From Brevinema andersonii (GTDB taxonomy: Bacteria > Spirochaetota > DYKD01): 64,000 nucleotides of DNA. Under the pieces are notes generated by a model that was not told where the DNA came from, ran no database searches, and worked only from the letters and a program-made list of their open reading frames with translations. Position numbers and translations under genes: made by a program. Positions 151-43,196 of the stretch are shown piece by piece (within the stretch, counting starts at the first letter, position 1; every line of letters begins with the position of its first letter). The DNA lies in contig DYKD01000004.1 of the NCBI GenBank assembly GCA_020722765.1, positions 5,967 through 69,966 on the forward strand, read 5' to 3'.

Positions 151-711
151 TTAAGACTCCGTGAAAGGCATATCTACTTTAATTTTAAATGGGGTATTCG
201 GTGGGAGAGCGTTACCCGCAAAATCAGTCGCAGAAGCTGCGGCATGAAAAGTGTAGCTGTGTTCGTGTAATGCATGCGTGAAATGAAAACCGTCGTTACC
301 ACCAGGATAAGCATTGTAAACATCAATAGTAATAACAATGCCGTTAGGTGTTTCATGCACCACCTTTAAAGAAACCGGATCAGCATATTCAAAATTACCA
401 TAGAGTTCTTGGATTGTATGCCCTCCAATTAGTGTTTCAACATAATATCCACCCATAACTCTTCTAATTTTGGACAAATCCCACTCTAGCCCTTTAAACG
501 TTACAGCGGTTTCGACAGATTTAAATCTATACGCGGTCGCAGTTGCGGGAATGTTCTGGAAAAACTTGTTCATTTCGTAAGTTGCTTTTATTTCAACCGC
601 GGTAACTGCACCTAGATCAATTGTCGGAGTCTGACCCGCGGCACCGATATAAACAACGCTGGGCCCAATCGAAAACTTACGAGTATCAAACTGTGGTAAA
701 TTATATGGCAT
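151..711 (-). CDS. Major tail protein-like paralogue (uninterrupted copy)
   Basis: MPYNLPQFDT..SIGP.V.YIG..G.TPT.D.GAV matches exon 1 of the gene at 20132..22570; later segments match its exons 3 and 4. Confidence 0.65.
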   Translation of the reverse strand: MPYNLPQFDTRKFSIGPSVVYIGAAGQTPTIDLGAVTAVEIKATYEMNKFFQNIPATATAYRFKSVETAVTFKGLEWDLSKIRRVMGGYYVETLIGGHTIQELYGNFEYADPVSLKVVHETPNGIVITIDVYNAYPGGNDGFHFTHALHEHSYTFHAAASATDFAGNALPPNTPFKIKVDMPFTES

Positions 712-4325: not shown

Positions 4326-4326
4326 G

Positions 4327-4533
4327 CTATTTCCTGAAAGTCAAGAACCTTTTAACCGCGTGATAATCGGCTTCAGACCAAAAATAACGCTGAATCGCAA
4401 ACGCTAGCAATGCCACTTGGACAGAAATTACAACCTCACCGACAGAAGCCACGCCAAAAGTGAATGCAGTGAGAACACCGATCGGAAATAGAAAAGTTAT
4501 TGCCATAACTAAAATAGCATGTGGGACTCTCAT
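4327..4533 (-). CDS. Small membrane protein
   Basis: 68 aa with two hydrophobic stretches; abuts tape measure gene. Confidence 0.4.
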   Translation of the reverse strand: MRVPHAILVMAITFLFPIGVLTAFTFGVASVGEVVISVQVALLAFAIQRYFWSEADYHAVKRFLTFRK

Positions 4534-13500: not shown

Positions 13501-16500
13501 ACGGCGTTAATTGTGCGGTGATAGTCTGAAACGACGCCTCTTAAAGCACCGAAGATGTTGACAAGCCCTGACTGGGCAGTGGCTAACTCCTCGGCGCTCA
13601 ATGCCCCTGATTTTATCTCCGCAAAGGTAGCTTCAATGTTTAACATCATGCCTTGAATTTCAGACCACAGTTCGGCAAATGAGCGAACAGGTTGGCCTCC
13701 TGTCTTAATGGCTTCTTCGTTAAACTTAGCAACCTTCTGATCCAGATCTTCGGTTGTATAACCTACATGTTTGAGACTGTTTAGTATTTGGTCGATGTTT
13801 TGTTTAGCTGCAGCTAAAAATTGGGGATAGATTGCTAATGGTTCGCCCGCCCTTTTAGCAGAATGACCAAAAACTTGTAAGTTATTGTTTAATTCTACAA
13901 ATGCATCTACAATGGTCCGTGTGGCACGCTGTGGACCTTCACCAAATTCACCGCCACCAACACTACCCATCAATTTAGAGGTGATAGCTCCAGCTTTTTG
14001 ACCAATCTCACTCTCACCACTAGATAATGCGGTCGCAACACCTCGTACACCCTCTACAACTTTTTCCTTTTGTTCGAGGAGTTTTTGTAGTTTGACGGCC
14101 GTTAATTCATCAAACGTTTTAGCAACCGCTGGTTTCGTAGTGGCAATAGTAGATTCAATGCCTGCGACTTCCTCTTCAGCTGACACTAAGGCCTCTTCCT
14201 TTCCGGGCACGACTTTCGCAGGCTCTTTGGCTCTTCCTGGAGCAGCGGCGACCTTCAAGCGTTGACGCGATTCAGCTTCTACACGTCTACTATACGCCCT
14301 CTCTAAAATTTCTTCGTAACGAGAGAGTTTATCTAATGCTGCGATGGCTGGAGTGATTTCGGCGATCGACGCTTGTAGGTCGATAACACCCCCAGCTGCA
14401 GGGACTGCACTCCTAGCAATGGTTTCAGAGTGAGTTCTTATCTTCCTCTTAACAAGATCAAGAACACTTTGAATTTTTGATGCTGACCATGACTCGACGC
14501 GTTTCGACCACCGTTGAAAGAATTCTCCCATTCCAGTTTCGATGTCACGAACTTCCAACATCGACCTAAATGCACCCTTCATTCCACCAGCTGAAAGTAT
14601 TTCTCCTTCTGGTTGAGCGAGATATGAAGGTGCTGCTAAAGGTTTACCCCAAGCAAGAGAGGAGAATTCGCCTTGCGCGACAATGCCGCGTGCTTCCCTA
14701 ACTCGGGCTTCTAGTACTTGTGAGAGCTTTTCGTTTAACCTGTTAGTAGCAGCTCTTACAAAGCTCACATACTTCTCACCAAAACCCGATTGCTCAACTT
14801 CTTTTAAATATTGTATGCTAGCCTGTTGAATTTGTTGGATTTTACTACCCGAAAGCTTTGCGATCCAGGATTGTGTACCACCTACTTCACTGCCAAACAA
14901 GATTTGACCAACACCTTTTGACAGAAACCCTTCCTTCGAAATGTCGACTGGAAGTTTCATCATTTCCTTGAAAGCGGAGTAAACTACCTGCGGATCCTCT
15001 GATAATAGGGCGGTGCGGATCGTCCTGCCAAACTCTCGGAAATGACCGCGCAGTGTTTTCTTGGCACTGTCCATCAACAAGTCTAATCTTGCAGCAAGTT
15101 CGGCTTGCCCCACATCAGTCTCAGCCATACCAGATTTAACAGATTTGCGGAAGATCTCAAAGGACTGTGCGGTTACTTCAGCGTTAAGTTTTGCCTGCTG
15201 TAACGCAAGATTAATTCCCGCTGTCTTTGGGTGTGCAGCGTCACCAGCTGCTACTATCGCGACTCTCAGCTTCTCCATCAATTCGGCTAGTTTTTGCACA
15301 GAACCTAAAGCGGGTTGAAAGAATCTGTGGGTTGCCTCCGGAGCGTCTTTAAGGGACTTGAGTGCGAAGTTCATTGCAGCAGCAAAATTTTTGGTGTAAT
15401 TAGCCGCTCGCTCAATTAATTCAAAACGGCCAGTCCCAAACATTTCTGCTACTGTAAGCTGTTTTTCAGGTTTAGGTGGGAGAAGGATTTCTGTGTACTC
15501 GCGCGCGAATTCAGGACCTTCAGGGATAAAAGCTCTTCGGCCAATTTTACGCGACATGGTCGTCATCCATGCATCAAAAGACATTGCGACATCTTCGGCA
15601 GATGGTGGCGTGAAGAGCCTACGAATTAAATCTGGTAGCGTACCAGTTGGGGGTTGTACAGACTTACCAATTAAACTGGTCATGTAGTCACCCCAGTCCT
15701 GATATGCCTTTTTAAGGCTTTCTATCGCTGGGATGTGTGCGCCATAAATACGAGCAACGTATTTATCGTATTCGGCCCGATGTTTTTCAAATCTAATTGA
15801 TTCAGTGGCTGGAAGCCCAAACTCTACACCTTCAGCAGCAAGTCGGACTAATTCGTGACTCTTGTTGAGCATAAACTGGACATTGCGACCAGCGTCGCCC
15901 GCAGCTCTACTATACTGAGTCATTCTAGATGCTAACTCACTGAGGGCTTGAGCGACATTAAAAAATTTCCACATTGGCATCAAACTTGTGTGAAGTTTAG
16001 CAAGGGCTTCGGTCGCGCGCTCTACATTAAACTCACGGGTGAACGCAGCTCTAACAGCCGTCTTGTATTCCTCAATAATTGGAGCTGGAGTAGTAGCGGT
16101 AACACCTGGCCGCTCCCCGATTGCTAAAAGTTGAGCTTCTACTTTTTCTATTTTTTCGGGTGTACTTTTGGGTGTAAGTCGTCTGCGTATCTTCCGTGCC
16201 TCGGCTTGAGCTTCTTCCACTCCGACACCAAATTTCTTTAAGACTGTGAAGGCTTGTTTAAGTTGTGTGGTGTCAACACGAAAATCTAACCTAAGTCCTT
16301 TTTCAAACTCAGATTTTACCTTTCTGAATTCGTTCCTTAACTTTTCAAGACCTGCAACGTCTTCTTTCTTTCCATAGGCGGTCATCTTCAGTAGTTGTTG
16401 GTCGATCTGCTCCAAAGCGGATTGAGTCTCGCTTAGACTACTAACAGTGATTTCTTTCTTCAAGACGTCTTCGAGCTGCTGCATAAACGGACGTAACCTA

Positions 16501-19028
16501 AACACAGCAGCAAATTGAGCGGCTTCACGGTTTACTTTCGTAAAACCTTCTCCCATTGCGCTAGTGACCGCGGCAAGCTTATCTAAATGAGATTCTAGCG
16601 CTGGCGCATTCTTAATGGGTTCCGCACCAAAGGCACTTAAATATTCAGGCGTTTTGCCAACCAAAGATTCGAAGCGGGTGAAAAACGCACCTTGTTTGAA
16701 TGCGTCGAAGAACTGATTTACACGCTCGGTTGCAAACTTAAAAGTGTCCACTACAGGTTGTACGAATTTTGCAGACTCTCCAAACCGTTTCATATCAAGG
16801 TGTGCCTGAGCGACAGCGTTTGCTAATTCCCTTTTAACATAACCGGTAGCATTGTCGATTTGAGTTTGTAAGTCTTTGGTGAATTCATAGAACTCAGGAC
16901 CAGCAGTGATCTTCTCGCCTCTCTTTATAGTGCTTACTTGAGCTAGGATTTCTTGCGCAGAAGGAACTTGTCCGGGTTGAGCTGCTCCCCTCCACAAGTG
17001 TATGAATTTTTCAATTCTATCGTGGAGTACATCTATACCCTCACCAATTGTGCTCCACCCTTGATAAGTCCTTTTTTGAGCTGCTCCGACCACATCAAGC
17101 GCCGAAGCTGTCTCCATAAGAGTATGGAGAAACTGTTCGGAGGGTACTCTTCTACCAGCAAATATAGCATCAAATATCTCGGTGCCGAACTCAGTCTCTA
17201 AGTAATCACGGAATTGTGCGCCCTCAGCCCCAAAAACTTGCTCAAACGAAGTGAAGGTTTTCTTAATGCGATCCGAGAAGGCAGCAGTTGGTGGTTCTTC
17301 GATAGGAGGCAAAATTGTAATGCCCTCTTTTTTAGCCTCTTTGAGTTGTAGGGCTTTTTGCCGTGCCTCACTTAACTGGGCGACAGTCTGGCCTAATTTA
17401 CCTACTAATGCGACCTGTCTCGCGTATGGTTTTTCTAAACTGGAAATGGCTTGCTCTTCTTTTGAAGCTAACGTGGTGATTTCAGCGACCATCCCATGTA
17501 ATTCATCAACGCCTTTGCGCAGCTGACTTATGTACGTGGTAAGCTCTTGTACCCTTAAGGGACGCAAATCAATAGCCCCAGCTTTAGCAGGAACTTCAGC
17601 AATTTCTCGCTTAAGTCGTTGCAGTTCAGTTGTTGCAAAGTGCAACGGCGCTCTAATTTTCTCCTCTTCAGCTGGAATTAAAGTTTTGGTGATTCGTTCA
17701 CGGGCTTTCGTCAGCCTACTTAGGGCTTCGGAATGGCGGATGAACTCTTGAGATAAAGTAAACATCGCTTCCTTTTCTCGTTCAAGGGCCCGTTGTTTCG
17801 CCCGTAACGACCGGGTGATAGCTCCAATGGGTTTACTTTCTAACTGTGAAACCTCAAGTGTCGCTGCAGGTTCAGCTGGAATACTTTCGGTAATTGATGC
17901 AAATTTAGTTTTAAGCTCTTTAACCTTAGCTGCAACGTTGCTCAACCGTTTTACTGTAGCATCAATTTCACTTTGAAACGCGGGACTACCAATAGCTGCT
18001 TTTTGTAGCAAACTCAAAGTTTGAGGGCTTTCAAAGACGGGCAAAATTCCTTTTTCAAGGACAGACCGAAGTTCGTTTCTCAACGTTTCAAGGTCTTTCT
18101 TGCGTTGCACTAATTCCCTAGCAGCTTGCTGATAACCTTTACTACCTTTTGTGGTCTCAATGAAAACCTGGAGTCCTTTCTCGCTGATTTGAGGAATGCG
18201 TTCTGCGATTTGGGCTTCAAATCGCTCAACGTCACGCAAGAACACGTCTTGCATCTTATTAAGCTGTTCCTGCCATTTGGGCAACCACGCGACTATATCT
18301 CTTTCAGAAGTAAACCGCGGTAATAACGGTTGCGTTCCTCCAGACAAGACACGGACGTGTTTGAAAAGCTTTTCTTCCAAAACCTTATACAAATTAGAGG
18401 ATTGAATTTTCGCTTCTAATTGTTGTGTCTGTGCTACAAACGTGTCCAGCTGGTGATATAGGCGGCCCATATCCCGTAGAGTAGTTTCTAAAGCCTCTCG
18501 TTCTTGCTTTAGTGAAGCGAGCTGTTCAAGTTGTTTAGCACCTCTTCGTGTAGTAGCGGGTCCTACTGTGGCAGCTGCACTTAGTGTTTTCTCGTACCTA
18601 GCTTGCTCCTTCTCAATCTGGCTTGCAAGTTCAGATACCTTACGCGCGACATTTTTGTAGGACTTCTCAATCGCAGCGGTTACTTGCGTAGACACTGTTT
18701 GAGAAGTGCGAAGCATGCTAAGCATGCCTTTTTCGACTTCTTTAATGTGGTTAAGGGTATAAGTGAGTGACTGAGTGATCCCCGTTTGAGGGATTTGTAC
18801 CTTTGTGGAGAAGTTAACGAGACTTTGCAGCCTTTTTTCAACTTCGCCGATAACTGAAATGCTTTTTTCGAAGGTGGCAGGTGTGAGAGCAGTCCCCAGA
18901 TGCCCAGATAAAGATTTACTGATTTTTTGGAAAGTTGTGTTAAGACGAGACTCCGTATCAGCGGCCCGTTTTAACAGGTCGTTGAATGGAGTAAAATCGA
19001 TATCTAACTTAAATCGCAGGTCTGCCAT
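4533..19028 (-). CDS. Tape measure protein (4831 aa) with embedded transglycosylase and HExxH metallopeptidase motifs
   Basis: Very long coiled-coil ORF between tail chaperones and distal tail genes; SLT motif 'MEQVESGFNPRRVGTSGERGPFQFMPSTAAMYGV..VAAYNAG' near 8.7-9.0 kb; 'VLIHETIHSLQ' near 5265..5279; two 'G.D.VP..L.PGE(Y/F)V' motifs. Confidence 0.93.
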   Translation of the reverse strand: MADLRFKLDIDFTPFNDLLKRAADTESRLNTTFQKISKSLSGHLGTALTPATFEKSISVIGEVEKRLQSLVNFSTKVQIPQTGITQSLTYTLNHIKEVEKGMLSMLRTSQTVSTQVTAAIEKSYKNVARKVSELASQIEKEQARYEKTLSAAATVGPATTRRGAKQLEQLASLKQEREALETTLRDMGRLYHQLDTFVAQTQQLEAKIQSSNLYKVLEEKLFKHVRVLSGGTQPLLPRFTSERDIVAWLPKWQEQLNKMQDVFLRDVERFEAQIAERIPQISEKGLQVFIETTKGSKGYQQAARELVQRKKDLETLRNELRSVLEKGILPVFESPQTLSLLQKAAIGSPAFQSEIDATVKRLSNVAAKVKELKTKFASITESIPAEPAATLEVSQLESKPIGAITRSLRAKQRALEREKEAMFTLSQEFIRHSEALSRLTKARERITKTLIPAEEEKIRAPLHFATTELQRLKREIAEVPAKAGAIDLRPLRVQELTTYISQLRKGVDELHGMVAEITTLASKEEQAISSLEKPYARQVALVGKLGQTVAQLSEARQKALQLKEAKKEGITILPPIEEPPTAAFSDRIKKTFTSFEQVFGAEGAQFRDYLETEFGTEIFDAIFAGRRVPSEQFLHTLMETASALDVVGAAQKRTYQGWSTIGEGIDVLHDRIEKFIHLWRGAAQPGQVPSAQEILAQVSTIKRGEKITAGPEFYEFTKDLQTQIDNATGYVKRELANAVAQAHLDMKRFGESAKFVQPVVDTFKFATERVNQFFDAFKQGAFFTRFESLVGKTPEYLSAFGAEPIKNAPALESHLDKLAAVTSAMGEGFTKVNREAAQFAAVFRLRPFMQQLEDVLKKEITVSSLSETQSALEQIDQQLLKMTAYGKKEDVAGLEKLRNEFRKVKSEFEKGLRLDFRVDTTQLKQAFTVLKKFGVGVEEAQAEARKIRRRLTPKSTPEKIEKVEAQLLAIGERPGVTATTPAPIIEEYKTAVRAAFTREFNVERATEALAKLHTSLMPMWKFFNVAQALSELASRMTQYSRAAGDAGRNVQFMLNKSHELVRLAAEGVEFGLPATESIRFEKHRAEYDKYVARIYGAHIPAIESLKKAYQDWGDYMTSLIGKSVQPPTGTLPDLIRRLFTPPSAEDVAMSFDAWMTTMSRKIGRRAFIPEGPEFAREYTEILLPPKPEKQLTVAEMFGTGRFELIERAANYTKNFAAAMNFALKSLKDAPEATHRFFQPALGSVQKLAELMEKLRVAIVAAGDAAHPKTAGINLALQQAKLNAEVTAQSFEIFRKSVKSGMAETDVGQAELAARLDLLMDSAKKTLRGHFREFGRTIRTALLSEDPQVVYSAFKEMMKLPVDISKEGFLSKGVGQILFGSEVGGTQSWIAKLSGSKIQQIQQASIQYLKEVEQSGFGEKYVSFVRAATNRLNEKLSQVLEARVREARGIVAQGEFSSLAWGKPLAAPSYLAQPEGEILSAGGMKGAFRSMLEVRDIETGMGEFFQRWSKRVESWSASKIQSVLDLVKRKIRTHSETIARSAVPAAGGVIDLQASIAEITPAIAALDKLSRYEEILERAYSRRVEAESRQRLKVAAAPGRAKEPAKVVPGKEEALVSAEEEVAGIESTIATTKPAVAKTFDELTAVKLQKLLEQKEKVVEGVRGVATALSSGESEIGQKAGAITSKLMGSVGGGEFGEGPQRATRTIVDAFVELNNNLQVFGHSAKRAGEPLAIYPQFLAAAKQNIDQILNSLKHVGYTTEDLDQKVAKFNEEAIKTGGQPVRSFAELWSEIQGMMLNIEATFAEIKSGALSAEELATAQSGLVNIFGALRGVVSDYHRTINAVATDELLLADIHSRELAALEQLGAKWREADLAMRKGLGPAISGGRETVRETLASAREIAIQSLVGAAWRTTGAAEGGMFARVKQPIATAQDILVKLFGGDITQGLALLREQLAVFRSRINEQEIPALIETFSRINELFNLGIRAPKTGASLEEQYTFLKGVFEKLDSETRKVALLDWDVKWVQQSQRARDSIHGISDELSRLIEKATSPEMLGRRGIFAERTARVAFYEEMRNALERARKIYAATTRDAEANAAEVRKLSGLMRESETVTSNVLSLWERMTNAVRTAKDNFADLFLYQVRWYTSMMLFWGIFNKVTETFNNLVEAQHQIERAVRTMREQSGEIVTNYERLEGLARHAIFEGMVRFGVDAKFAAESLYQLGSAGLSAQEALAALQPVMALIRATEGDVGETTKIVAGLYNVLKDSIEPNIEMATKFRIISDVMSQVFKDHQVEINELNQSYRYSIAAADSLGLNFYELSALIGIMNDNMVKGSRAGRGFAKVLQHMAKQPLEVAQSFVLLAEHMGIPLKVYEKLAGPEVRKMTAMDMLREMSKIVKASGKSFEELGRIFEDFGMVGGRALAPLLLNMDKIDSEITRLRMASVGAGEEQASRMTQTVASNIRRIASFIQSALFPVFTVVHTVMVSTVRLVRTMADMMDGVIEKFSKIAEKGTTIITGVLRGAPLTEIRGEVREREVFPGFVQTFINASLHAFTLLGILKLVSGQLGSWDIFSKVVTKVTAQLGSIGSLLSGIAGAFGKIGKLLAVFSVGGLVAGLKALFAAVIGGFASLGQALYAFWLTPAGKFMIIASVIVGAFVAIKNAWGETLDSIVEKSESATAKFTEQLGKIEQRAVSAYHATAEIVAAQEAVEAAIAKGAPREVATEEQREAMVKWLATMGVADKAVENHAVTVGTLREKYATFLTLSRNMVSMYAGIGKAAAHNKELEELYGNALVAARTRTMSSMENLTKAYQKAYWMVKGKSIWDLFDLGDTRAVQFGPDWGRKLFEQIDPRTLSAEGKRKYLEATKLITEAIKDVGAAQANEVNVYFGRLSSLIANPMRAQVEAWQKQDWGDVKIFKALQDKLREELAAPNLYGMKWGEIGAKIFDSKEFLIQLQGNRDLLLQLVPAEVADWFRTLNLADNEQVKRAREGLAKGLFEMRIPGMAESVLASMGIKVDKTLTDKKVREIADAAMEALKTETEYRKSYIENLAKETELSYKIAPPTAEQFRLDTQRQYLLKREQLRQEEINLQREYYHQLSKLTTMHADDATRKLKEEQARNELRVKLIKNHYEQLNLAIQQGEEQAKLFRMSHTADLLDIESQRLSAQTKTTEASSVIEEERAKLARGELADVDRVRAAYERKKAAVREEIKLAEERAKLEQEEIRIKWQVLEQEIQEGIRPTAELRNREAELRKRSAELANEVASKKNQLMQIDREMENAITEFMGKNLEIRTHLLRQGAADAVQSQGDFFNRYQSMLHTMSSVTRTQLKAMIDETVRQASTYGETFTALMLAMEQVESGFNPRRVGTSGERGPFQFMPSTAAMYGVKAEQLEGFENRALATKIAIRHTLDLMRALGIDLSQLEGINEETWQKLMKVVAAYNAGLDRVKLGKIPASTLKHLEKVKKAFLQFRTGVKIPRDLRIRIPAEHEVVPSIVWEGFDAWYAKIVEMIGRGRPGAEYVKKAITDFYGLIRDNRLQPAEIKQFEDSISRLFDVWLRVKLPRADFFKMLTEPLKALLETGAIIDKQVVDLYVSILLKQKVSYAKIRKEMLEIGKTMFEDERNWTVQNFEDMLKMLDYLATKPGVSMTKFYNYLFSDVLSPTRLKTQIETNFELFELFYEKLMALGTKWLQGGIPYKIAKTFEQAIKEALTSGFELRPEQFDSLIRMMAKIPGLTMKEAFDNIAKFYEMQAQRHETTKRQLSELQEHMAMFGATAADIWKAIGSIADIEITKIYANWSRAAAGMIKDQETIKTLGDAFWWGMVKGLSDFASKLEDPIHRLGEMLTGTLESMRGTLEDVFTDFALHRLKDPQEYINKLAEGLARMAARNLSELAMEQVTGGIASLLGIPPEMISKEYAEKQAKLEDKQYKLESLAYQRATAENTAGILSAMGGGPAIPGVSGLEGGLGVEGEGGIAGVAESLEELETGGGGVRSPSIGRSTFGGMPSRTFGGAPGGIPSETPGGLFGGLFSGGFFSGIFNFIKGIISFIPSLLGLFGGMSRPTYGGASLGFSPFGFSPMGMQTGGFVKGSGGTDSVPVWLTPGEYVLSLPVVKKLQEGGLALGDLFEGTLELPIEDLFGGFFEEFSEGLEEQLEPLYELFKPHAGIGQGYYGPGFQQYASWSDWFNQTVAAEAQRKHQEWLQKELANAQEVAQGYAQRAALAGQFWKGLFSFPFQVFFQKGGLIGEALTSRGFPAWPGQVTTAEPIVKKTKTTWPWWMLALTYMSMFSSLLSMFKQMQRPKPTMATGKVGPAASTLYPNIDLLQRNGSFWDEIFTEPFDAETILGKGTLGLPEMGLSELGLPKLELGLPKESFSLWDKIKGFFGFGPLAGGAGSYGGMGMASGAGAAMGAGGGGGFFSSIGNFFSSIFSGIGSFFSGIFSFFRGMQHGGLVENILDWFGPTEAWAIEPLNILPELEKTWNLELAEASPEVRSYIEEAKTGIRRAAEFFQENNPAATTYIAEALGRTDRFKDPREYLKSSISPGSYYIPESDQIVMQLQGSKFPAREFIAEREPAGIQSQFANVLIHETIHSLQESGRPLAGFLPVIDSAKVKAYLEKTFPQSPAEYIEYLASPEEVMARGVAHYLTKRIYPEFKDIFAGGTWPEEYDALMRELADAVATGKYPAAPKLGPIQWLIWQWKKPFQIGGPVPGTGRGDIVPAMLEPGEFVVNRPTVSFFGPDFFYALQDLVKFQGAAPEKVLSGVAPVKMQMKTGGTVPKVTIPTPAVSPELKMTVVNVLDEESIEQFLGSKKYGDVFVNKLGARFNRRVLGSRGV

Positions 19029-19717
19029 TATGTTATTTCAATGGGTAGCCCGTCTAATTGCAAGCCACGTAAAGCTGCCTCATCATCTAATTTGGTAAAA
19101 TTAGAACTATCTGGAGCGCTTTCATCTCCTTCAAGCTTGGCCCCATGTATTGAAGCTTGGAATTTCATCCTGTCTGACAAGTACGTTGAAATTGCTGCAC
19201 CTAAAGCACTCACTTGCACTTTAGGCAAATCTAAAATTTGGTCGGGAAACCAACCACATTCAACTGCGAACATCGCGATTGCGTGGCTAAACAGATCTTT
19301 GTGCATATCTTCAATAGTAGTCATGTATTCATTAGCGGTCTTAATTTCATCAGGCGTAGGTGCAATGTAATTCCAAACATCAAGAAAGGTAGATTCTATG
19401 GACTCGGAATCAAGCCTTTCTTCAACGTCTGATTTGGATATGCCTAGAGCTAGAGCAACGAAGTCTAACACGACTTCGTCATCGGAGAAGACCTCGTTGA
19501 GGTCAGGACTTTTTGAGAATGCAGTCTCGAGCAAATCCCACAGTTGTAGCTCGAGACGCCAAGAGGGGGGAACCTGATAGTAAATGAGGTTGCCGTTTAC
19601 GTCTTCGACCGAATGGCGCTCAACGAGGAATGACTTCCAACTAATGTGTTTGTTCGCCGGCTGGTTTGATGTCGGTCGAGTCAAGCGCCGTTTGGGGTCC
19701 AGGTTGTGTTGTACCAA
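19028..19717 (-). CDS. Tail assembly chaperone, downstream frame
   Basis: Overlaps the upstream chaperone ORF in the +1 frame just before the tape measure gene. Confidence 0.65.
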   Translation of the reverse strand: MVQHNLDPKRRLTRPTSNQPANKHISWKSFLVERHSVEDVNGNLIYYQVPPSWRLELQLWDLLETAFSKSPDLNEVFSDDEVVLDFVALALGISKSDVEERLDSESIESTFLDVWNYIAPTPDEIKTANEYMTTIEDMHKDLFSHAIAMFAVECGWFPDQILDLPKVQVSALGAAISTYLSDRMKFQASIHGAKLEGDESAPDSSNFTKLDDEAALRGLQLDGLPIEIT

Positions 19718-20120
19718 TCATGCCACCTCCAGGAAACGGGAAGGGTAAACCACCCAGACGCAGATTCCATTTTTCCGAATATTTCTGGACAAATGGTATG
19801 ATGAACTCAAAAATCGCGTCACCATCAAACTTGCTATCAACATCTTCCTCGGAAATTCCAAGAATCTTGCTGACAACAAGGGTTATTTTTTCGGGCGCTT
19901 GGGTTGTAAGGTACTCCATAAGAGCAATCCCTGGGGCTCGGTCGGTGTGCCCAAAAAGATCTTCAGGAATACTCGCAAGAGCTGTCCCGATAATCTTCAG
20001 GATTTCCCTCTCCTTACCCCAGGGAAGCTTTAGTCTGACTTCGACCGCCTGTCCGTCGATGTCATGAATGGTAATTTTGTCTTGTGCTTGAGTTGTCATA
20101 GGCCTCCAAGACCTCCTCAT
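19641..20120 (-). CDS. Tail assembly chaperone, upstream frame
   Basis: Acidic protein between major tail protein and tape measure genes; likely true start MTTQAQDK (8th codon). Confidence 0.65.
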   Translation of the reverse strand: MRRSWRPMTTQAQDKITIHDIDGQAVEVRLKLPWGKEREILKIIGTALASIPEDLFGHTDRAPGIALMEYLTTQAPEKITLVVSKILGISEEDVDSKFDGDAIFEFIIPFVQKYSEKWNLRLGGLPFPFPGGGMIGTTQPGPQTALDSTDIKPAGEQTH

Positions 20121-20131
20121 TTTAATTTACT

Positions 20132-20480
20132 TTAGCTGGCCGTTTTTTCAACAACCACTTTGAATAGTTGTTTACCAACTTCCAGTGTGTTGCCACCCCA
20201 GTCTTTGCAAGTGCGAGTAGAGTTATCCCACGGAACCATAGCGTTAAAGGTGTAAGGCAGTTTGTGGTGAGTGTCACCGAAGTTAAACTCAACCGCGCCA
20301 TCACCTTGCGCTTGCCAGATGTACACATTAATGGTCCAACCATACGGGGTTTGGTGCACGAGCTTCAGCGCAACGTTGCTGAACGAGATCTGTCCGCCGA
20401 AATCGAGGATTTCGGTGTTGGACGCCGAAGAAGTAATGCCCGCACCCAATGCGTACATCAGGTTGTTGACGTTCCATTCG
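20132..20480 (-). CDS. Major tail protein, last exon
   Basis: EWNVNNLMYALGAG...VALKLVHQTPYGWTINVY.. aligns with LEWDLSKIRRVMGGYY..VSLKVVHETPNGIVITIDVY of the 151..711 paralogue; 5' boundary set by P10 pairing. Confidence 0.85.
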
Positions 20481-21554
20481 CATTCTGGACTGTTGCATCA
20501 CCCTTTTATAGGGCGTTCCCACACTCAGTCTCTGCAAGTGAGCCGAAAGTCTCACGAAATCTCGAAAAGATCTTGCCTTTAATGTCCTGACGCCGCCTCC
20601 CCAAAGGCAACGCAAGAATTAAGTCTGCTTGAGATCTTTGCTGGCCCTCTAAATGGTCGTAAACTGCTTCTAGGATTCTTTTCACTTTACGTCCTTTAAC
20701 ATAACGCGCTGGCTGATCCAAGATCCCAAAAACATCTGAAGCCGATTCAAGGCGGAGAACTGGGGTGATATGTGGATTACCTGCTCCATTAGTCAACCTC
20801 CAAATAGAAAGTTTCCCATTCCGCACGACTTCATATAAAGCTTGAGGGTCGATTTTCGTGATACTTGAAACAATCTTCGACTCTTCTTGAGCGTTGGCAT
20901 CCAGATGAAAATCATACTTCCACTTATAAGCAAAGCACTTAAAAACGGGTTGTCCCATCCATTCAAGAAAATCACGAATGTATTCGTTTGCAATATCAGT
21001 TTGAAACATGGAGCCCTTCCACAGCTGCTTTCTTGCTTGAATTCCATGGTTTTTTAATTGCAGAACGATGCGGTCAACATCGTCTTCACTAAACCCGTGG
21101 GTACAAATAGCGCAAGCATTTTTTGAAATCCACCCATCACCACAATATGCCACGTTAGCAACTAAAGGGGTAAGGTTGAAATCTTTCGGTAAACACTTGT
21201 GGCTATTTTCATCGTACCAACGTTTACGAAACTCAGCAAGAACCGACTTGTTGTATGCTTCCAATTGGTAAACTGTTTTGCCTACAGAAAACCCGTCTTT
21301 CTGAGGAGCGATGCAAGCGTAAGTTTTCCATCCTAAGTCAGTGAAAAACTCACGCACTTCCTCAAAATACTGCTTATGAGTAGTTGCAAAACGTACTTGA
21401 GGAGAAGGCATCTTTGTGACATGAATGTCGCTAAAAATTAGTCCTTCTAAGATCTCAAAAGCACGTTGTTCCATTTTCATCCTTTTGCGTTCGCCATTAA
21501 TTAGTGGAAATTAACTTTTCTAACGCTTTCCAGCGTAGCGGGACCGAATGTTCA
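20481..21554 (-). ncRNA. Group I intron C (contains LAGLIDADG ORF)
   Basis: 5' exon GGGAU pairs with guide GUCCC (U.G at splice site); adjacent CAUUCG pairs with 3' exon CGAAUG (P10); last intron base G; splicing gives in-frame ATC GAA TGG; 3' end has GAGACUG...GCCC-UAUAAAA-GGGU...ACAGUCC (P7/P8-like). Confidence 0.8.
20506..21480 (-). CDS. LAGLIDADG homing endonuclease within intron C
   Basis: 324 aa; 'LEGLIFSDIH' and 'LVANVAYCGDGWI' motifs; nearly fills intron C. Confidence 0.8.
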   Translation of the reverse strand: MKMEQRAFEILEGLIFSDIHVTKMPSPQVRFATTHKQYFEEVREFFTDLGWKTYACIAPQKDGFSVGKTVYQLEAYNKSVLAEFRKRWYDENSHKCLPKDFNLTPLVANVAYCGDGWISKNACAICTHGFSEDDVDRIVLQLKNHGIQARKQLWKGSMFQTDIANEYIRDFLEWMGQPVFKCFAYKWKYDFHLDANAQEESKIVSSITKIDPQALYEVVRNGKLSIWRLTNGAGNPHITPVLRLESASDVFGILDQPARYVKGRKVKRILEAVYDHLEGQQRSQADLILALPLGRRRQDIKGKIFSRFRETFGSLAETECGNAL

Positions 21555-21634
21555 ATCCCGGAGATTTTCAGGGTCGCTGTTTCCTGTGTCGCAAATTGCG
21601 CAATTAAGGTTTTAGGTGATGTAAATTGTTGAAA
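21555..21634 (-). CDS. Major tail protein, internal exon
   Basis: Open frame FQQFTSPKTLIAQFATQETATLKISGI aligns with FFQNIPATATAYRFKSVETAVTFKGL in the paralogue; in-frame TGA lies at 21635..21637, so the 5' edge is at or just inside that codon. Confidence 0.75.
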
Positions 21635-21640
21635 TCATTA

Positions 21641-21990
21641 ACAATTTACTTTGTTACCGTAGGTCTTTTAATCCCCTACTTCTGCACATTTCTGTGCAGC
21701 CCAGACTATATCTTCCCTTTCGGGGGCGGTGCTCGTGTCCGGCTTATTGGTTTCCTGGTCCTCACCGGTTAGTCGTTGAACCTTCTCTTCTACAGTGTTC
21801 AGGATTCGAAGAGCTCGGCTGCTGATTGCCCTCGGCTTCACGTTAGGGTGTTCCAGCAATTCTCCGCCTTTTTTTGACCGAGGCTGAAATTTGTACTCCA
21901 CACCTTTGAAAAAGGACTTTCCCAAATAAGGAAGTAAACCCTCTAAAACTTGATACATTTTTTCGTTCATTTTCAACCTCGGGGGATTCC
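21641..21990 (-). ncRNA. Group I intron B core (boundaries approximate)
   Basis: 'GGTTCAACGACTA' and 'AAGATATAGTC' (P7-type) motifs; P9 hairpin CUGCACAGAAAUGUGCAG; candidate P1 GGGAUUU:GAAUCCC. Confidence 0.8.
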
Positions 21991-22009
21991 CAAAATAATT
22001 AAAATCCCT

Positions 22010-22405
22010 GAAATCAAGTGTGTTACCCTAGGAGCTCTTTATCTCCTAGTTCTGTACATTACTGTACAGTTCAGACTATGTCTTTCCCGTCTCCTCGGGA
22101 GGCGGCACTCGTGGGAGTAATTACTGCCATATCTTTCGACTTAGGCTCGACTCCTAGTCGTTGAACCTTCCAGAGAGTTTCCCCTCTAGCTTGGCTGCAC
22201 GTTGTCCTTTGGCCGGGATTCATTATCAATTCCAAAGGATGTTCATGCAATTCACCGCCTTCATTCTTCATCACTGCATTAACTGGAGAACAGTGATGCG
22301 ATGCCACGTGTTCCTTGAAACCCCACTTATACGCCATTACTGTTCCTTTCAGTCATTTTGTTTTTGTTGTTGTTTGTTGGCGTTTAAAAAGTGTAATGAT
22401 TTCAA
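22010..22405 (-). ncRNA. Group I intron A core (boundaries approximate)
   Basis: 'GGTTCAACGACTA', 'GACATAGTCTGAAC' motifs; P9 hairpin CUGUACAGUAAUGUACAG; same architecture as intron B. Confidence 0.8.
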
Positions 22406-22406
22406 G

Positions 22407-22570
22407 AAGTTATTTTTAACATCCTCCTTAGTTCGAGTGGATGATAGGACTGCTCCGGACTCTACTGCCCCTACGTCGACGGTGGGCGTTGTGCCAGAAG
22501 GTCCGATGTAAAGAACACACGGACCAATCGACATACGGTTTGTGTCGAATTGTGGCAGATTGTAGGGCAT
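22407..22570 (-). CDS. Major tail protein, first exon (3' edge between 22407 and 22419)
   Basis: MPYNLPQFDTNRMSIGPCVLYIGPSGTTPTVDVGAV matches paralogue N-terminus. Confidence 0.8.
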
Positions 22571-22868: not shown

Positions 22869-23282
22869 TTATGCAAAGAATCCGTACGCTTGTACACGGA
22901 AATTACTGCTATATAACAGTTCGTTGGGATCCATATCTTGAGATCCGTGATCTAAAATTTTGAATCCTACACGAGCGTTTGTAACATTAGGAACATCGTA
23001 CCATTCATTATCAAAAATATTCTTCATGTACTCGTAGATCTTATCAGTTTCACCAAAGTTTTTTGTTGAATAGATCCACACTTCATAGATTGGCATCACT
23101 CGTGTGTTGTATCTGTGGTCACGTGGTGATGGTTGCCGCTGAAAGCAGATGCATGGGTAGGATGGGTTTTTGATGGCAGCAAGATATGTAGGATATACCC
23201 GAGCTCCAACCAAAGCGGAAACGTTTGGGTTGTCAATCAACTGTCTACGAAATGCAGCGTCAATGGACTCTAAGTAACTCAT
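22869..23282 (-). CDS. Tail terminator / tail completion-like protein
   Basis: 137 aa, 'Y...YPCICFQRQP...VWIYS' minor tail protein-like pattern; position. Confidence 0.5.
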   Translation of the reverse strand: MSYLESIDAAFRRQLIDNPNVSALVGARVYPTYLAAIKNPSYPCICFQRQPSPRDHRYNTRVMPIYEVWIYSTKNFGETDKIYEYMKNIFDNEWYDVPNVTNARVGFKILDHGSQDMDPNELLYSSNFRVQAYGFFA

Positions 23283-23626
23283 TCACTAAACGGGTCCCCT
23301 ATTTTATCCAACGCTCTCTCGAACACAGGATGTGGTTTAATGTACCTAGTACCACGAATGACATATTTTGCGTGAGGTGCAACCTTTTCATCAAAGTATA
23401 CCTCACATGAAATACCATCTGGGCTGGCTTCGAGTTTGGTCTTTAATGAATTACGCAACCTACCCGTCTTGAAACCCAACACTTCTTCAGACTGTTTCAC
23501 AGAAGAAGTGCCGAGCATTCTTTTGACTGTGTCAACATAACGTTTTGCCCATTGATGCCCGCGTGCAGCTAAATTGCGCGCGTGCACTGTAATTTCGGCT
23601 TCGAGTTGCTTTGTGAATTCACTCAT
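23279..23626 (-). CDS. HK97 gp10-like head-tail connector
   Basis: 115 aa, 'FKTGRLRNSLKTKL...HAKYVIRGTRYIKPHPVFERALDK'. Confidence 0.6.
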   Translation of the reverse strand: MSEFTKQLEAEITVHARNLAARGHQWAKRYVDTVKRMLGTSSVKQSEEVLGFKTGRLRNSLKTKLEASPDGISCEVYFDEKVAPHAKYVIRGTRYIKPHPVFERALDKIGDPFSE

Positions 23627-26001
23627 CTTTTATTCGTTTTCCTTAATTTCTTTGTAAGCTCAGTTGTTGTTGCAGAGGTTAGAAAAGGTGGAAACATCAA
23701 CGTTTCGTCTGGCACCAGCTTACGCAAAATGTTTTTCACCTCATTCACTGGCCTATACAATGGATGTCCTTCTGGGACATCCTGGGCGCTGCTCTCAAAC
23801 AGAGCGCGTGAAAACCTCAAATACATTTTTGCGAGCTCGATTTTCGCGAGCGTGAACTTTGAATAAAGATTGACAGCTTTTTCCAAATGTTCAACCGCCG
23901 CTTTAGTGTCGCCCATTTCCGAGTAATGGAGCGCCAAGTTGAAATACGGTTTAGGGTCCCTTGGGTCCCTATGCATAGCTCTTTTGTTAAGCTTAATGTA
24001 GTATTTAAGCTTGTCTTGCAGTCGCTCTGTTAAGAACCCAAAATGGTTGATGACACCTTTCGCGCGAATTATCTGCCGGTTGCGAATCTTGCCGATAGAG
24101 TCCTCGATAGTTTCATGAATCAAACCCGAAAAATAAATGTCGGGACGATTTTGGTATAAACGCATAACTTCTGTAAAAACATCAGGCCTATTCTTCTGGA
24201 CGTTGTTGACGTTGAACATTGCCGCGGTTGGATGTGACTCGACCATAAATGTAATTTCAGGAGGTGATGAATACATTTCATCAACATCCATCACCCAGAT
24301 GTAGGCGCTCGTTGATTTTCTTGCGAGCCAGTTACGCATATCAGAATAATCTTCGGTCCATTCACGTTCAAAAATTTTGGCACCCCACCGCTTTAACACG
24401 TCAACCGCTTCAGAACCAGGAGCAACACGTACTACTATCTCATCAGCGACAGTAGCATGACTTTCTAAGAAGATTTGCACTTTGTGTGAAGGTTCGTGTT
24501 CAGTCATAATATTCAAACTAACTGTGTACTTATCTGAACCCTGCCACTCAGATATAAGAATATTGTTTTGGTTGGTTAAATGTGAGTAATCTGTTCCTCC
24601 CACTAACTCCACAACCGGGTTCGGATCAAGAGCTTCATAGTACCGCCTTTTCTTCTCCCTAAGATCAGGGTCTATATATCCATAATGAAGGATGTGAACG
24701 TTTACTGGCGCGGAACTAACTGCGGGAATATTTGGGACCCTACTGCAATGCAGGGAGGTCCCAGGCGTTCCCCTAAAATACTTCATGTTAGGTAGCACTT
24801 TAACCATGAAGACCGCTGATGCGGGTGGATAATTCACATGGTATGTATTTGGTGAATTCCACAAATGGATAAATCTACCGACAAATGCGTAAACTCCAGG
24901 AATTGGAGTATTTGCGAGTCGTTGCAAGTATTCCCTAGTGACCTTTTCCTCGAGAAACTCGTCATGATCAAGTACAACCATCCACTCCACACCCTGCTTG
25001 AATGATATCTCATACAGTTTTGCGCGCTGATCAACTTCGACCTCATCGGACATTAAAGTGTAAGTGAATTTACCTGGGTAATTTTCTTGCAGCCAACCTT
25101 CCATATCCCAACCGCTGTCATCATCAACGATATTGATGATGTCGAAAAGAGAAGCGTGACGCTTCATCCACGCTTCGAGCTGCTCACGGCTACATTTAAC
25201 ACGAGTATTTCCTGAGATTGAGCGTTCTTTAAACTCACCACAACATTTCTCAACAACTTGCAATCTATTGTAAGTGCCAGAGTCCATAGAGTCTTGCAAA
25301 GATTTCGAGCCGTGATGGAAGACAAACGTGCTTCTGTCGACAAAACATGAGTAACCCATTTGGTTTACTCGTGCACATAAATCTACGTCCTCATTCCCAT
25401 TTACAAAGCGTTCATCAAACCCACCAAGCTTCTCCCATATATCTCTACGAATCATGAAACAAAATCCTGAAACAACACCAGCGTAAATCCACTTTCCGAT
25501 ATTCTCCGCGTGCACACGTTCCGCGAATTCATCAAGTGCATCAAGCGGTATTGGGGAATCTGCTTTTACCAATTGATGAGACATAACGTAGTTACTACAC
25601 GGCGCTACAATCGCAGGCTCAGGCGCGGGTCTATCTGGATCCTTCAACAAGGTTTCATAACAACGAATCAGCTGCTTCAGCCACTTCTTAGGCACTCGAG
25701 TGTCATTATTGAGCACTACAATAAACTCACCTTTCGCAAACGACGCGCCCATATTAACGTTGGCCGCATAATGTGTATGTCCTGTGGTGTTATGAATAAA
25801 CCTAAAATTTGCGTACGTTTGGTCCCAAGCTTCCATCGCAACAACTGTGCCGTCGTCAACGTCGCCTCCAGTACCACACACAATAATTTCAAATACAACA
25901 TCCTCGGTTTTATGTAATGTGTTAAGCAATTCCGTAGTGTATTGCAGTCCTCCATGAACAGGAATGACAATGGAAACTTTGGGATTCATATATTCCTCCA
26001 A
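23623..26001 (-). CDS. Multi-domain family 2 glycosyltransferase with C-terminal TPR region
   Basis: 'VSIVIPVHGGLQYTTELLNTL', 'VVLNNDTRVP'; later GT-A-like segments with 'VLDHDEF' and 'VMDVDEM'; 'YFNLALHYSEMGDTKAAVEHLEKAV' TPR. Confidence 0.85.
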   Translation of the reverse strand: MEEYMNPKVSIVIPVHGGLQYTTELLNTLHKTEDVVFEIIVCGTGGDVDDGTVVAMEAWDQTYANFRFIHNTTGHTHYAANVNMGASFAKGEFIVVLNNDTRVPKKWLKQLIRCYETLLKDPDRPAPEPAIVAPCSNYVMSHQLVKADSPIPLDALDEFAERVHAENIGKWIYAGVVSGFCFMIRRDIWEKLGGFDERFVNGNEDVDLCARVNQMGYSCFVDRSTFVFHHGSKSLQDSMDSGTYNRLQVVEKCCGEFKERSISGNTRVKCSREQLEAWMKRHASLFDIINIVDDDSGWDMEGWLQENYPGKFTYTLMSDEVEVDQRAKLYEISFKQGVEWMVVLDHDEFLEEKVTREYLQRLANTPIPGVYAFVGRFIHLWNSPNTYHVNYPPASAVFMVKVLPNMKYFRGTPGTSLHCSRVPNIPAVSSAPVNVHILHYGYIDPDLREKKRRYYEALDPNPVVELVGGTDYSHLTNQNNILISEWQGSDKYTVSLNIMTEHEPSHKVQIFLESHATVADEIVVRVAPGSEAVDVLKRWGAKIFEREWTEDYSDMRNWLARKSTSAYIWVMDVDEMYSSPPEITFMVESHPTAAMFNVNNVQKNRPDVFTEVMRLYQNRPDIYFSGLIHETIEDSIGKIRNRQIIRAKGVINHFGFLTERLQDKLKYYIKLNKRAMHRDPRDPKPYFNLALHYSEMGDTKAAVEHLEKAVNLYSKFTLAKIELAKMYLRFSRALFESSAQDVPEGHPLYRPVNEVKNILRKLVPDETLMFPPFLTSATTTELTKKLRKTNKR

Positions 26002-26033: not shown

Positions 26034-26609
26034 TTAACCTGGATTTTCGACTAGATAGAAAGTCCATCCTTTCGAACTAAATAGAAGAGGGGCGCGGTGA
26101 ACATCGTAGCATACCCCACTAAAACCATTGTCGAGAGATGCGCTCTCTCCTAAACGGGGCTCGAAGTCCTCAACATAGACTCTCATGTGCCTGCCACGAA
26201 TCCAGCCAGGGATACCAACATCCCCTCTAACAGCTGTTGGTATCACCTCTTGTACACTACATAAGTATGGCCCGTAGTTGGTTGTTGTTAGAACTGGCTG
26301 ACCTTGACCGTCAACAGCTTTAATGTTGATGTTAAAGCTGCTCCAGGAGGGAGTCAGTGAAGTGATTTGTTTGTAGGAATTTTGTGAAACTTTCACACCA
26401 CTTCCTAAAAAGTTAACGCTCTCATTTATACTTTGGTCGTTTTCATCGATTCCAGCAACACCTAAATTACCTGACGTAGTTATCGCTGCGACTGTTATTT
26501 CAAGGTATGCGGCGACGGATGGATTGATAATAGTAGGAACTCCAGCGGTCCAGTTGGACACTACATCTGAACTTTCACGATAAAACGTAATCTTATGAGT
26601 ATATTGCAT
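26034..26609 (-). CDS. Putative head completion protein
   Basis: 191 aa, position between connector and GT genes. Confidence 0.4.
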   Translation of the reverse strand: MQYTHKITFYRESSDVVSNWTAGVPTIINPSVAAYLEITVAAITTSGNLGVAGIDENDQSINESVNFLGSGVKVSQNSYKQITSLTPSWSSFNINIKAVDGQGQPVLTTTNYGPYLCSVQEVIPTAVRGDVGIPGWIRGRHMRVYVEDFEPRLGESASLDNGFSGVCYDVHRAPLLFSSKGWTFYLVENPG

Positions 26610-27205
26610 TAAATGAAGTCTCTTGGGCCTCTACGTGCGAACGTGTTTAGAACCACTAGAACATCCATTCCAAGAAATGATAATATACTGCCAGCGGTTT
26701 CAAACTTTTTGATAATCACTCCGCCTGTATCGATGGACGCGACGTTTGCAATGCCTCGATTGCGAAAAATTTGACCGCCAATTTCGAGCGTCAACCACTG
26801 GAGTGTGTTCCATTCCTTATCGCTTTCAGTGTAGCCCGCGGTGTATTCAACTAATACACTTTGAGGGAATGCTGTACAATAATTCCCGTAACTATCGTAA
26901 ATGCGACCGTCTTTGAAAAACTTAATCTCGTCTAAGTCTCGCGCAACTCCAGTCGTGTCAGTGACATCAGAAAAATAAGTAATTCCGTGAACAGCGGTGA
27001 GAGGAAACTCAGAAACTGTTATCCAAAACGGGTTGTAACATGTTACACGTTCGACGTACCTATCAGACACTAAGCTCCGGTTACAATAACTCTTAATGTA
27101 AGCTTCAGAAGAGTCAAGACATACTTGCAATACATCATCAAGACCAGATACATCAGAAACGTTCATGTATTCTTTGAATACAGTAAGTCCTACAATTGCC
27201 ATCAC
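26609..27205 (-). CDS. Head-tail connector protein (gp6-like)
   Basis: 'FKEYMNVSDVSGLDDVLQVCLDSSEAYIKSYCNR' and 'EYTAGY'. Confidence 0.65.
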   Translation of the reverse strand: MMAIVGLTVFKEYMNVSDVSGLDDVLQVCLDSSEAYIKSYCNRSLVSDRYVERVTCYNPFWITVSEFPLTAVHGITYFSDVTDTTGVARDLDEIKFFKDGRIYDSYGNYCTAFPQSVLVEYTAGYTESDKEWNTLQWLTLEIGGQIFRNRGIANVASIDTGGVIIKKFETAGSILSFLGMDVLVVLNTFARRGPRDFI

Positions 27206-27293: not shown

Positions 27294-28682
27294 TTACAAC
27301 ACGGCTAAGTTGTAACCGATAGAGACGACATATTCCGTAGAGGTATTATAAAGCGGGACAAAATCCAGCCGCTGGTGACAAACCATGAGATGGTTATCAT
27401 CCTCGGGGATGTCCTTTACCTTTACAGTGATAGCTCTACGATCACCAAAGACCCACGAAGGTGTGTGGACCAGCATGATGATGGTCTTATTGGTTGTAGT
27501 ACCACTATAGACACCCGTTGTATCTAGGTCTTGGCGTACAAACTCACTGACGATAATCGGGATGTTGTCGAACTTCCCGAGTTCGCCTTTGAGGATAGTC
27601 GCGTCAGGGCCGTACTCGTTAAGCTTGAGAACTTCACCGACGCCAAGCATCTGATGATATCCAGCGATCGAGGTAACCCAGGCAAGATCTTTAGGATCTG
27701 TACCATACCTACCCATTTTCGATCTCATGCTACGAAGTAGTCCAGCCCCTTGAGCATAGGTGCCGCCTCCAGTCCAGCTAGCAAGATTGACTTTCGCGTT
27801 TGCGGAACAGCAGTAACGATATCCGTCCCACGCTTTCCGAACGTCGGTAGACCCAGGAACGTCACCAGTGTCAATGGTTCCCGATTTTTGACCATTAATA
27901 GCAGCGGTTTCTTGCGCATTACCCATCGCGCGAGACATGCTATCTTTCAAGAACGGTAGCACGGGAACGATCGAATCTTCGGTGATTTCTTCTGAGAAGT
28001 AAACCAGGGCGCCAATCTTCTTAGCATCTAACGTCACACCCATTGAAGTCGGCCGTGACGCTGTAGGACGACCCTCAGGTGAATTCGATGTAATAGTTTC
28101 ACCAACAAGGTACGCAGTGATATCTGTACCTCCATGTACAGGCAGTTTGTATTGTGGTGTCGGCATTTCAATCCGACGATGTAATGCGGCAACCTTCAGC
28201 GCTAGGCGCACTCTATCGATCAAATCAGCAGAAAAGCCTAGCGGAATAAAATCCGCGCCATAGTGAGTGGTTGGTGTCGGCATGGTAGGACCAGCACCAC
28301 CAAAAGAGTCGGCTTTCAAGAGCGGGTGATCCAACAGTCTCTTGTAGATCTTCAAAGACTGAGGAGGCCTATCCAGCATCTGAGATACTAAATAGACGTC
28401 GTCATTCGCCCTTTGCAGGCTTTTAATCGATTCGTCTTCAGTGGAAGTATCGATGACTTTTTGCACCGCTTCCCACCGCTGATCAAGCGAATGTGATTTG
28501 ATCATTTCGTGAGCGTCTTTTTCGTCAAAACGCCCTTTACGTTCTCCAGGAGTCCCTTTTTGAACCTCATTAAGGGCGTCAGAGATCATTCGTTTTACGG
28601 TCTCTTCGTCCTTACTTTTTGACAGGTCGCTGATAAGATTGCCGATGATTTGTTTGGCCTTTTCGAGATTTTCTTTAGCCAT
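27294..28682 (-). CDS. Major capsid protein (HK97-fold)
   Basis: 462 aa; position after prohead protease; capsid pattern 'GGTDITAYLVGE' to 'VCHQRLDFVPLYNTSTEYVV'. Confidence 0.8.
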   Translation of the reverse strand: MAKENLEKAKQIIGNLISDLSKSKDEETVKRMISDALNEVQKGTPGERKGRFDEKDAHEMIKSHSLDQRWEAVQKVIDTSTEDESIKSLQRANDDVYLVSQMLDRPPQSLKIYKRLLDHPLLKADSFGGAGPTMPTPTTHYGADFIPLGFSADLIDRVRLALKVAALHRRIEMPTPQYKLPVHGGTDITAYLVGETITSNSPEGRPTASRPTSMGVTLDAKKIGALVYFSEEITEDSIVPVLPFLKDSMSRAMGNAQETAAINGQKSGTIDTGDVPGSTDVRKAWDGYRYCCSANAKVNLASWTGGGTYAQGAGLLRSMRSKMGRYGTDPKDLAWVTSIAGYHQMLGVGEVLKLNEYGPDATILKGELGKFDNIPIIVSEFVRQDLDTTGVYSGTTTNKTIIMLVHTPSWVFGDRRAITVKVKDIPEDDNHLMVCHQRLDFVPLYNTSTEYVVSIGYNLAVL

Positions 28683-43186: not shown

Positions 43187-43196
43187 AAAGACCTCC

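Follow-up and report, generated by a model that had tools for sequence, protein, structure and literature searches.

A single gene of an uncultured tailed phage has very probably been invaded three times by group I introns, two of which flank an exon of 13 nt. The gene lies on the minus strand, from 22570 to 20132, of the 64,000-nt stretch of DNA analysed here (the window), which belongs to contig C72 (90,044 bases), one of the 371 contigs of its bin; a direct terminal overlap indicating circularity was not found for the contig. The gene consists of four exons and three introns, mapped as follows:

22419..22570, minus strand: exon 1, MPYNLPQFD..TRTKEDV, ending GGATGT^
22015..22418, minus strand: intron 1, group I, IA2-like phage type, 404 nt, ending GGUAACACACUUG^
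22002..22014, minus strand: micro-exon 2, 13 nt, ATTTCAGGGATTT, encoding FQGF
21617..22001, minus strand: intron 2, group I, IA2-like, 385 nt if the end is ATCA^CC
21555..21616, minus strand: exon 3, PKTLIAQFATQETATLKISGI
20481..21554, minus strand: intron 3, 1074 nt, LAGLIDADG-bearing, beginning GGGAT^TGAACATTCGGTCCC and ending AGAATG^CGAATGG
20132..20480, minus strand: exon 4, EWNVNNLMYALGAG..KTAS, then stop; 77-79% identical to orthologues

The exon junctions are fixed by orthologous loci that are uninterrupted. There are five of these on IMG/VR viral contigs (L013, L014, L015/L016 and L017), representing four distinct sequences because L015 and L016 are identical, and they read TRTKEEVFQGFPKTLIAQF...LKISGIEWNVNN with small variations. 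Splicing in silico at the mapped sites yields a 191-aa product that aligns with the orthologues without gaps around the junctions and with 75-82% identity, which argues for the four exons and three introns given above; the protein of exon 1 is 67% identical to residues 1-61 of the orthologue. The gene differs from its orthologues by a dN of about 0.15, with a dS of 2.6 and a dN/dS of 0.06 against L015, the only one of the four sequences for which dS could be computed.

The micro-exon is placed by several observations. Its product, FQGF, falls where the orthologue alignment calls for it, and the pattern [FY]QGF occurs once, in any frame, in the 803 nt that separate exons 1 and 3 (12 of 5000 shuffles). 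Its start coincides with the expected end of intron 1, GGUAACACACUUG^ATTTCAGGG, and its end with the expected start of intron 2, for which it supplies P1. A longer exon 1, running through KNNF and then into PKTL, was considered by hand and rejected because it offers no explanation for FQGF and disregards where intron 1 ends. The preliminary description of this DNA had assembled exon 1, an internal exon and a last exon into a protein co-linear with an uninterrupted paralogue. Those coding pieces do exist, on the minus strand, and the co-linearity holds, but the 13-nt micro-exon at 22014-22002 had been missed. This carries a warning for annotation: an exon of 13 nt can hide between intron cores, and naive joining of reading frames can yield the wrong protein.

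In the mechanism that we propose, each intron would fold after transcription into a guanosine-dependent ribozyme. Its guide sequence would form P1 with the last bases of the exon before it and P10 with the first bases of the exon after it. Each intron would then excise itself, and the joined exons would encode a virion protein of 191 or 193 aa.

The long open reading frames of the window lie on the minus strand and, in profile searches, many match tailed-phage families. They include:

61354-63771: DNA polymerase, tailed-phage family match
35092-37605: terminase, tailed-phage family match
33696-35015: portal, tailed-phage family match
28682-29821: head protease, tailed-phage family match
27294-28682: major head protein, tailed-phage family match
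26609-27205: head-tail adaptor, tailed-phage family match
23279-23626: tail-completion (neck) protein, phrog_5, upstream of the interrupted gene
701-2797: tail-tip protein, tailed-phage family match
151..711, minus strand: paralogue of the interrupted gene, uninterrupted, 186 aa, about 36% identical to the orthologue

The interrupted gene sits between tail-completion/terminator-like genes and two overlapping chaperone-like reading frames, which are followed by a 4831-aa tape-measure-like reading frame. This order fits the usual place of a major tail (tube) gene, and we assign it by position as a probable tail-tube-type gene. The claim that a major tail protein gene is split by several group I introns is well supported as regards the splitting, whereas the name rests on gene order, with no family match behind it: profile searches found no family model that names the window protein as a tail protein, and the orthologues match only phrog_2175, a 'protein with Ig domain'. 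No PDB match was obtained for the protein, and two AlphaFold runs gave models with pLDDT of 41 and 37, too poor to use. The paralogue and orthologue proteins found no match in the annotated phage collection, nor did the paralogue alone in IMG/VR. Among 61 genomes the tail protein is present only in this one, and it was not found in GTDB genome contigs; a search of viral and genome contigs with the exon DNA pattern returned neither near-identical phages nor an empty-site allele. The paralogue is located beyond the tail-tip gene and, given this position and its 36% identity, is probably a different component.

The tape-measure-like reading frame (4533-19028, minus strand) is, at 4831 aa, very long for its kind. 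Tail length usually follows a rule of about 0.15 nm per tape-measure residue, by which the tail would be roughly 0.7 micrometre long. The two overlapping reading frames between the tail protein and the tape measure (19028-20120, minus strand) are arranged like frameshifted tail chaperones, with an offset that would require a +1 or -2 shift. A 792-aa glycosyltransferase-like reading frame with repeats (23623-26001, minus strand) is located among the head-tail connector genes, and a similar one occupies the same place in L005. A fusion-like reading frame at 41417-43276 (minus strand) matches QueC-like queuosine synthesis and glutamine aminotransferase domains and possibly has a role in DNA base modification. 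Directly upstream of one uninterrupted orthologous tail gene is a TnpB-type transposon-like gene (L004:1-1020).

Introns 1 and 2 each contain a catalytic core of the phage type, and no intact endonuclease is found in either of these mini-introns. The two cores had been recognised from the sequence alone in the preliminary description, and the covariance-model search for group I introns that it proposed returned both as full-length matches, above the gathering score of 50 bits. The elements of the two introns are:

22052..22299, minus strand: intron 1 catalytic core, Rfam RF00028, 65.5 bits, E 2.3e-14, full length
21682..21922, minus strand: intron 2 catalytic core, Rfam RF00028, 65.1 bits, E 2.9e-14, full length
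22300..22304, minus strand: candidate intron 1 P1 strand, GCATC, U.G with GATGT^, just upstream of P2; hand-drawn
22394..22405, minus strand: intron 1 5'-proximal element, TTGAAATCATTA and the bases just before it
21983..21989, minus strand: intron 2 guide P1 strand, GAATCCC, 7 bp with the micro-exon end, U.G at the splice site
21621..21649, minus strand: 29-nt hairpin, GTAAATTGTT-AATGATTTC-AACAATTTAC, perfect, near the intron 2 3' end

The 3' end of intron 1 is regular. Of 37 phage-type introns from IMG/VR, 35 end in G(A/G)UAACA followed by a G at a distance of 4-7 nt, and intron 1 fits this pattern, its terminal G being followed in frame by the micro-exon (GGUAACACACUUG^ATTTCAG). Its guide is less clear: the candidate P1 (GATGT^/GCATC) is not better than shuffles, and the P1/P10 scan gave a value reached by 917 of 2000 shuffles, which is not significant. 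The guide of intron 2, 13 bases into the intron, forms a P1 duplex of -9.1 kcal/mol, and the TTTTGG that precedes GAATCCC is complementary to the start of exon 3, CCTAAAA (P10), across the junction GGGATTT^CCTAAAA; 9 of 2000 shuffles reach the best score of the scan at this orthologue-defined junction. A competing guide position at +61, in a loop, scores equally, but the +13 position adjoins P2. At the same junction, however, the near-universal terminal G is absent, and the intron ends ACATCA^CC, with an A in its place.

The perfect hairpin lies just before this irregular end, where the bases preceding exon 3 read GGUAACA AA [GTAAATTGTT-AATGATTTC-AACAATTTAC] ATCA^CC. With the hairpin removed, the end of the intron becomes GGUAACAAAAUCA^, which is the consensus except for an A in place of the terminal G (the sequence AAAUCG in L113 serves as the comparison for this hairpin-less end). 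The hairpin loop itself holds an alternative 3' site, UAAUG^AUUUCA, which does have a terminal G and whose exon side begins at 21635. What follows the alternative site is a near copy of the micro-exon (ATTTCAACAATTT compared with ATTTCAGGGATTT, 10 of 13 nt). The 'internal exon' of the preliminary description, has its first residues, FQQFTS, in and just after this hairpin, and this start would be coding only if the micro-exon is skipped. A further peculiarity of intron 2 is that its P2 loop (21976-21930, minus strand) encodes MKMNEKMYQVLEGLL, 15 residues that resemble the beginning of the endonuclease in intron 3 (pairwise BLASTP E 0.002) and are perhaps what is left of a former endonuclease gene.

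Two mature mRNAs are possible, since the 13-nt exon has on either side an intron of one and the same type. Inclusion of the micro-exon is predicted to give the junctions GGATGT-ATTTCAGGGATTT-CCTAAAACC, with GGATGT then followed by ATTTCAGGGATTTCCTAAAACC, and a 191-aa protein reading EDV-FQGF-PKTL, the layout of the orthologues. Joining exon 1 to the UAAUG^ site skips the micro-exon in frame through the predicted junction GGATGT-ATTTCAACAATTTACATCACC and gives a 193-aa protein reading EDV-FQQFTS-PKTL. The remaining combination, the micro-exon joined to the hairpin 3' site, was rejected because it causes a frameshift. Both inclusion and skipping are thus encoded, and both may occur. We give skipping an even chance of yielding the main product, and we regard inclusion in that role as somewhat doubtful.

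Skipping might also be obligate, with intron 1, the micro-exon and intron 2 removed together as one 783-nt composite intron (22418-21636), and we consider this to fall only just short of an even chance; perhaps one ribozyme would then be assembled from core 1 (5' half) and core 2 (3' half), in the manner proposed for Twort. The regular consensus spoiled at its last base, the substitute site with its terminal G in frame only with exon 1, and the near copy of the micro-exon placed after that site all favor such an arrangement. So does pairing between the cores: a P3 whose 5' strand comes from core 1 and whose 3' strand comes from core 2 scores -15.5, compared with -14.0 and -10.7 for the native pairings, making it the best of the four P3 helices that cores 1 and 2 could form and the one that a single two-intron ribozyme would need (Twort model, PMC10136302). 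The 5' region of intron 1 is likewise complementary to the alternative site. The TTGAAATCATTA element pairs over 12 bp with the hairpin-loop 3' site at -12.9 kcal/mol (2 of 3000 shuffles) and, slightly more strongly, over 12 bp with its own 3' site before the micro-exon at -13.9 kcal/mol (1 of 3000 shuffles), these being two tests. The stronger pairing with the intron's own site speaks against obligate skipping, and because an equal or better pairing is reached by 4 of 420 other 25-mers taken from the real gene, the 12-bp pairing alone is not proof. Obligate skipping would also add two residues (TS) that are absent from every orthologue compared, and the guide of intron 2 fits the junction between the micro-exon and exon 3 rather than the hairpin site (9 of 2000 compared with 672 of 2000 shuffles).

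One evolutionary account of these features, which we regard as more doubtful still, is that intron 2, its own terminal G lost, acquired a hairpin whose substitute 3' site mimics the micro-exon, an obligate composite ribozyme now ejecting the 13-nt exon. If true, the composite ribozyme would replace the four residues of the micro-exon by six drawn from the hairpin and the bases that follow it. The same hairpin could instead have inactivated splicing by inserting near the 3' end of intron 2, leaving the gene to decay and the paralogue at 151..711 to serve as the tail protein. Although the expected terminal G is indeed lost and a paralogue does exist, we consider this very unlikely because all of the exons are open and constrained in sequence, with the low dN and dN/dS given above, an in-frame splicing route remains, and the paralogue, divergent and beyond the tail-tip gene, is probably a different component.

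The closest parallel is the tail tube gene orf142 of Staphylococcus phage Twort, which, in the passages of PMC11878797 and PMC10136302 that recount Landthaler and Shub 1999, contains three group I introns. According to the same passages, a 23-nt exon between two similar IA2 introns of orf142 is either skipped or included, and a model in which the two introns form a single large ribozyme has been proposed (PMC10136302). Like orf142, the window gene, by its position a probable tail gene, has three introns, two of which are similar, of IA2 type, and flank a very short exon; this exon is 13 nt long and lies between introns 1 and 2 in the window gene, whereas in orf142 it is 23 nt long and lies between introns 2 and 3. 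As in the Twort case, similar introns flank the short exon and the skip junction is in frame. The window gene differs in that its intron 3 bears a LAGLIDADG gene and its intron 2 lacks a regular terminal G. The phage is unrelated to Twort, and unlike Twort it has a 4831-aa tape-measure-like reading frame and a tail protein with no match in the annotated phage collection. This is a second, independent case of the Twort layout of a tail gene with tandem similar group I introns and a tiny exon. It suggests that structural genes of phages may repeatedly have come to use tandem ribozymes for exon skipping. What is new here is the micro-exon of 13 nt, together with an intron 2 whose 3' end is unusual; the splicing twist at that point, read from the sequence, is unproven. 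The two predicted products differ by known residues, a difference that bears on whether a ribozyme pair edits or varies a tail protein.

Exon skipping is also reported for the DNA polymerase gene of SIOphi (Bastillevirinae), where more than 47% of transcripts skip a whole exon (PMC11878797). That gene resembles the window gene in having several phage group I introns but differs in encoding a polymerase and not a structural protein.

Intron 3 is of a different kind. The preliminary description counted three distinct cores, and the covariance model recovers two of them; for intron 3, a search to E values as high as 10 gave no Rfam group I match, although P1, P10, P3, P7 and P8 can all be drawn. 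The LAGLIDADG reading frame that it placed in the third intron is clearly present:

20506..21480, minus strand: LAGLIDADG homing endonuclease reading frame, 324 aa, its C-terminal third reading through the 3' part of the intron

It matches phrog_11023 (E=1.2e-25 over residues 1-188) and PF03161 (E=2.7e-12, 47.4 bits with a cut-off of 25). Both acidic motif residues, D18 and D115, are present and conserved with phiNIT1, and the protein is distantly like proteins of Bacillus phages annotated as 'RNA maturase'. The predicted endonuclease would spread intron 3 into empty alleles. For aligning the intron, only distant relatives of the protein were found, and their neighbourhood contains no Rfam intron; the DNA of intron 3 had no match among phages.

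In spite of this divergence, we consider it highly probable that intron 3 is a group I intron, of a divergent type. The junctions GGGAT^TGAACATTCGGTCCC ... AATG^CGAATGG provide a U.G at the 5' site and a terminal G, and exactly at the junction set by the orthologues the guide CATTCGGTCCC pairs with the two flanking exons (P1 of 6 bp and P10 of 6 bp, 3 of 2000 shuffles). In the last 60 bases, P7 (GAGACUG/CAGUCC, with a bulged A), P8 (a CGCCCU/AGGGUG hairpin), a J8/7 of six bases and one strand of P3 stand in register, and the P3 partner UUUCCAC lies just after P2 within the first 52 bases. The whole P3/P7/P8 arrangement was found in 0 of 1000 shuffles, a significance that is somewhat flattered because the pattern was composed after inspection of the sequence. 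A candidate P4 (AACGCAA/UUGCGUU) would place the endonuclease gene in the P5 loop, and a strong local hairpin competes with it. This competition, together with the missing RF00028 match, is what could be expected if intron 3 were not a functional group I intron and the LAGLIDADG gene sat in a degenerate or different element. Since P1 and P10 meet at the exact junction and the core elements stand in register, we judge that reading improbable and retain the divergent group I intron.

That a tail gene would be an unusual place for such introns is not borne out. The preliminary description had presented a repeatedly invaded tail gene as unusual, a claim that is weakened by the close parallel with Twort orf142 and contradicted also by crAss-like capsid genes and by IMG/VR cores beside capsid genes. 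The major capsid gene of the crAss-like zeta group is in five pieces, with group I intron domains in three of the four gaps (PMC7886860); like the window gene it is a split gene for an abundant structural protein, but it encodes a capsid protein of unrelated gut phages. We surveyed IMG/VR with two core motifs, one of 20 bases and one of 16, as seeds (at least 120 stretches in the larger scan) and compared the reading-frame segments just downstream of phage-type cores with Pfam. Among the 111 segments listed, at least 17 match SU10_MCP, the SU10-type capsid, and at least roughly 14 more match other capsid families, compared with at least 3 for DNA polymerase B. The reading frame beside a core need not in every case be the one that is interrupted; even so, phage-type group I introns clearly occur commonly in structural genes.

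The same bin as the window contains a third Rfam group I match on another contig (G000:C145:32276-32862, L003), in an AAA ATPase-like gene; this intron carries an HNH-like reading frame, and its P1, P10 and terminal G are regular by eye. L021 (IMG/VR 3300016457_000123) has two major-tail-like genes (phrog_807) in a row at 3600-5430, the second of which apparently contains two group I introns in tandem, separated by a short exon. The L021 cores are 47 nt apart and adjoin the phrog_807 gene, a likely parallel to the window gene that differs in tail family and whose splice sites are only hand-drawn. In L020, L022 and many of L023-L145, all from IMG/VR, phage-type group I cores often adjoin major capsid genes, and in L022 what appears to be a capsid gene has three Rfam group I matches over roughly 1 kb.
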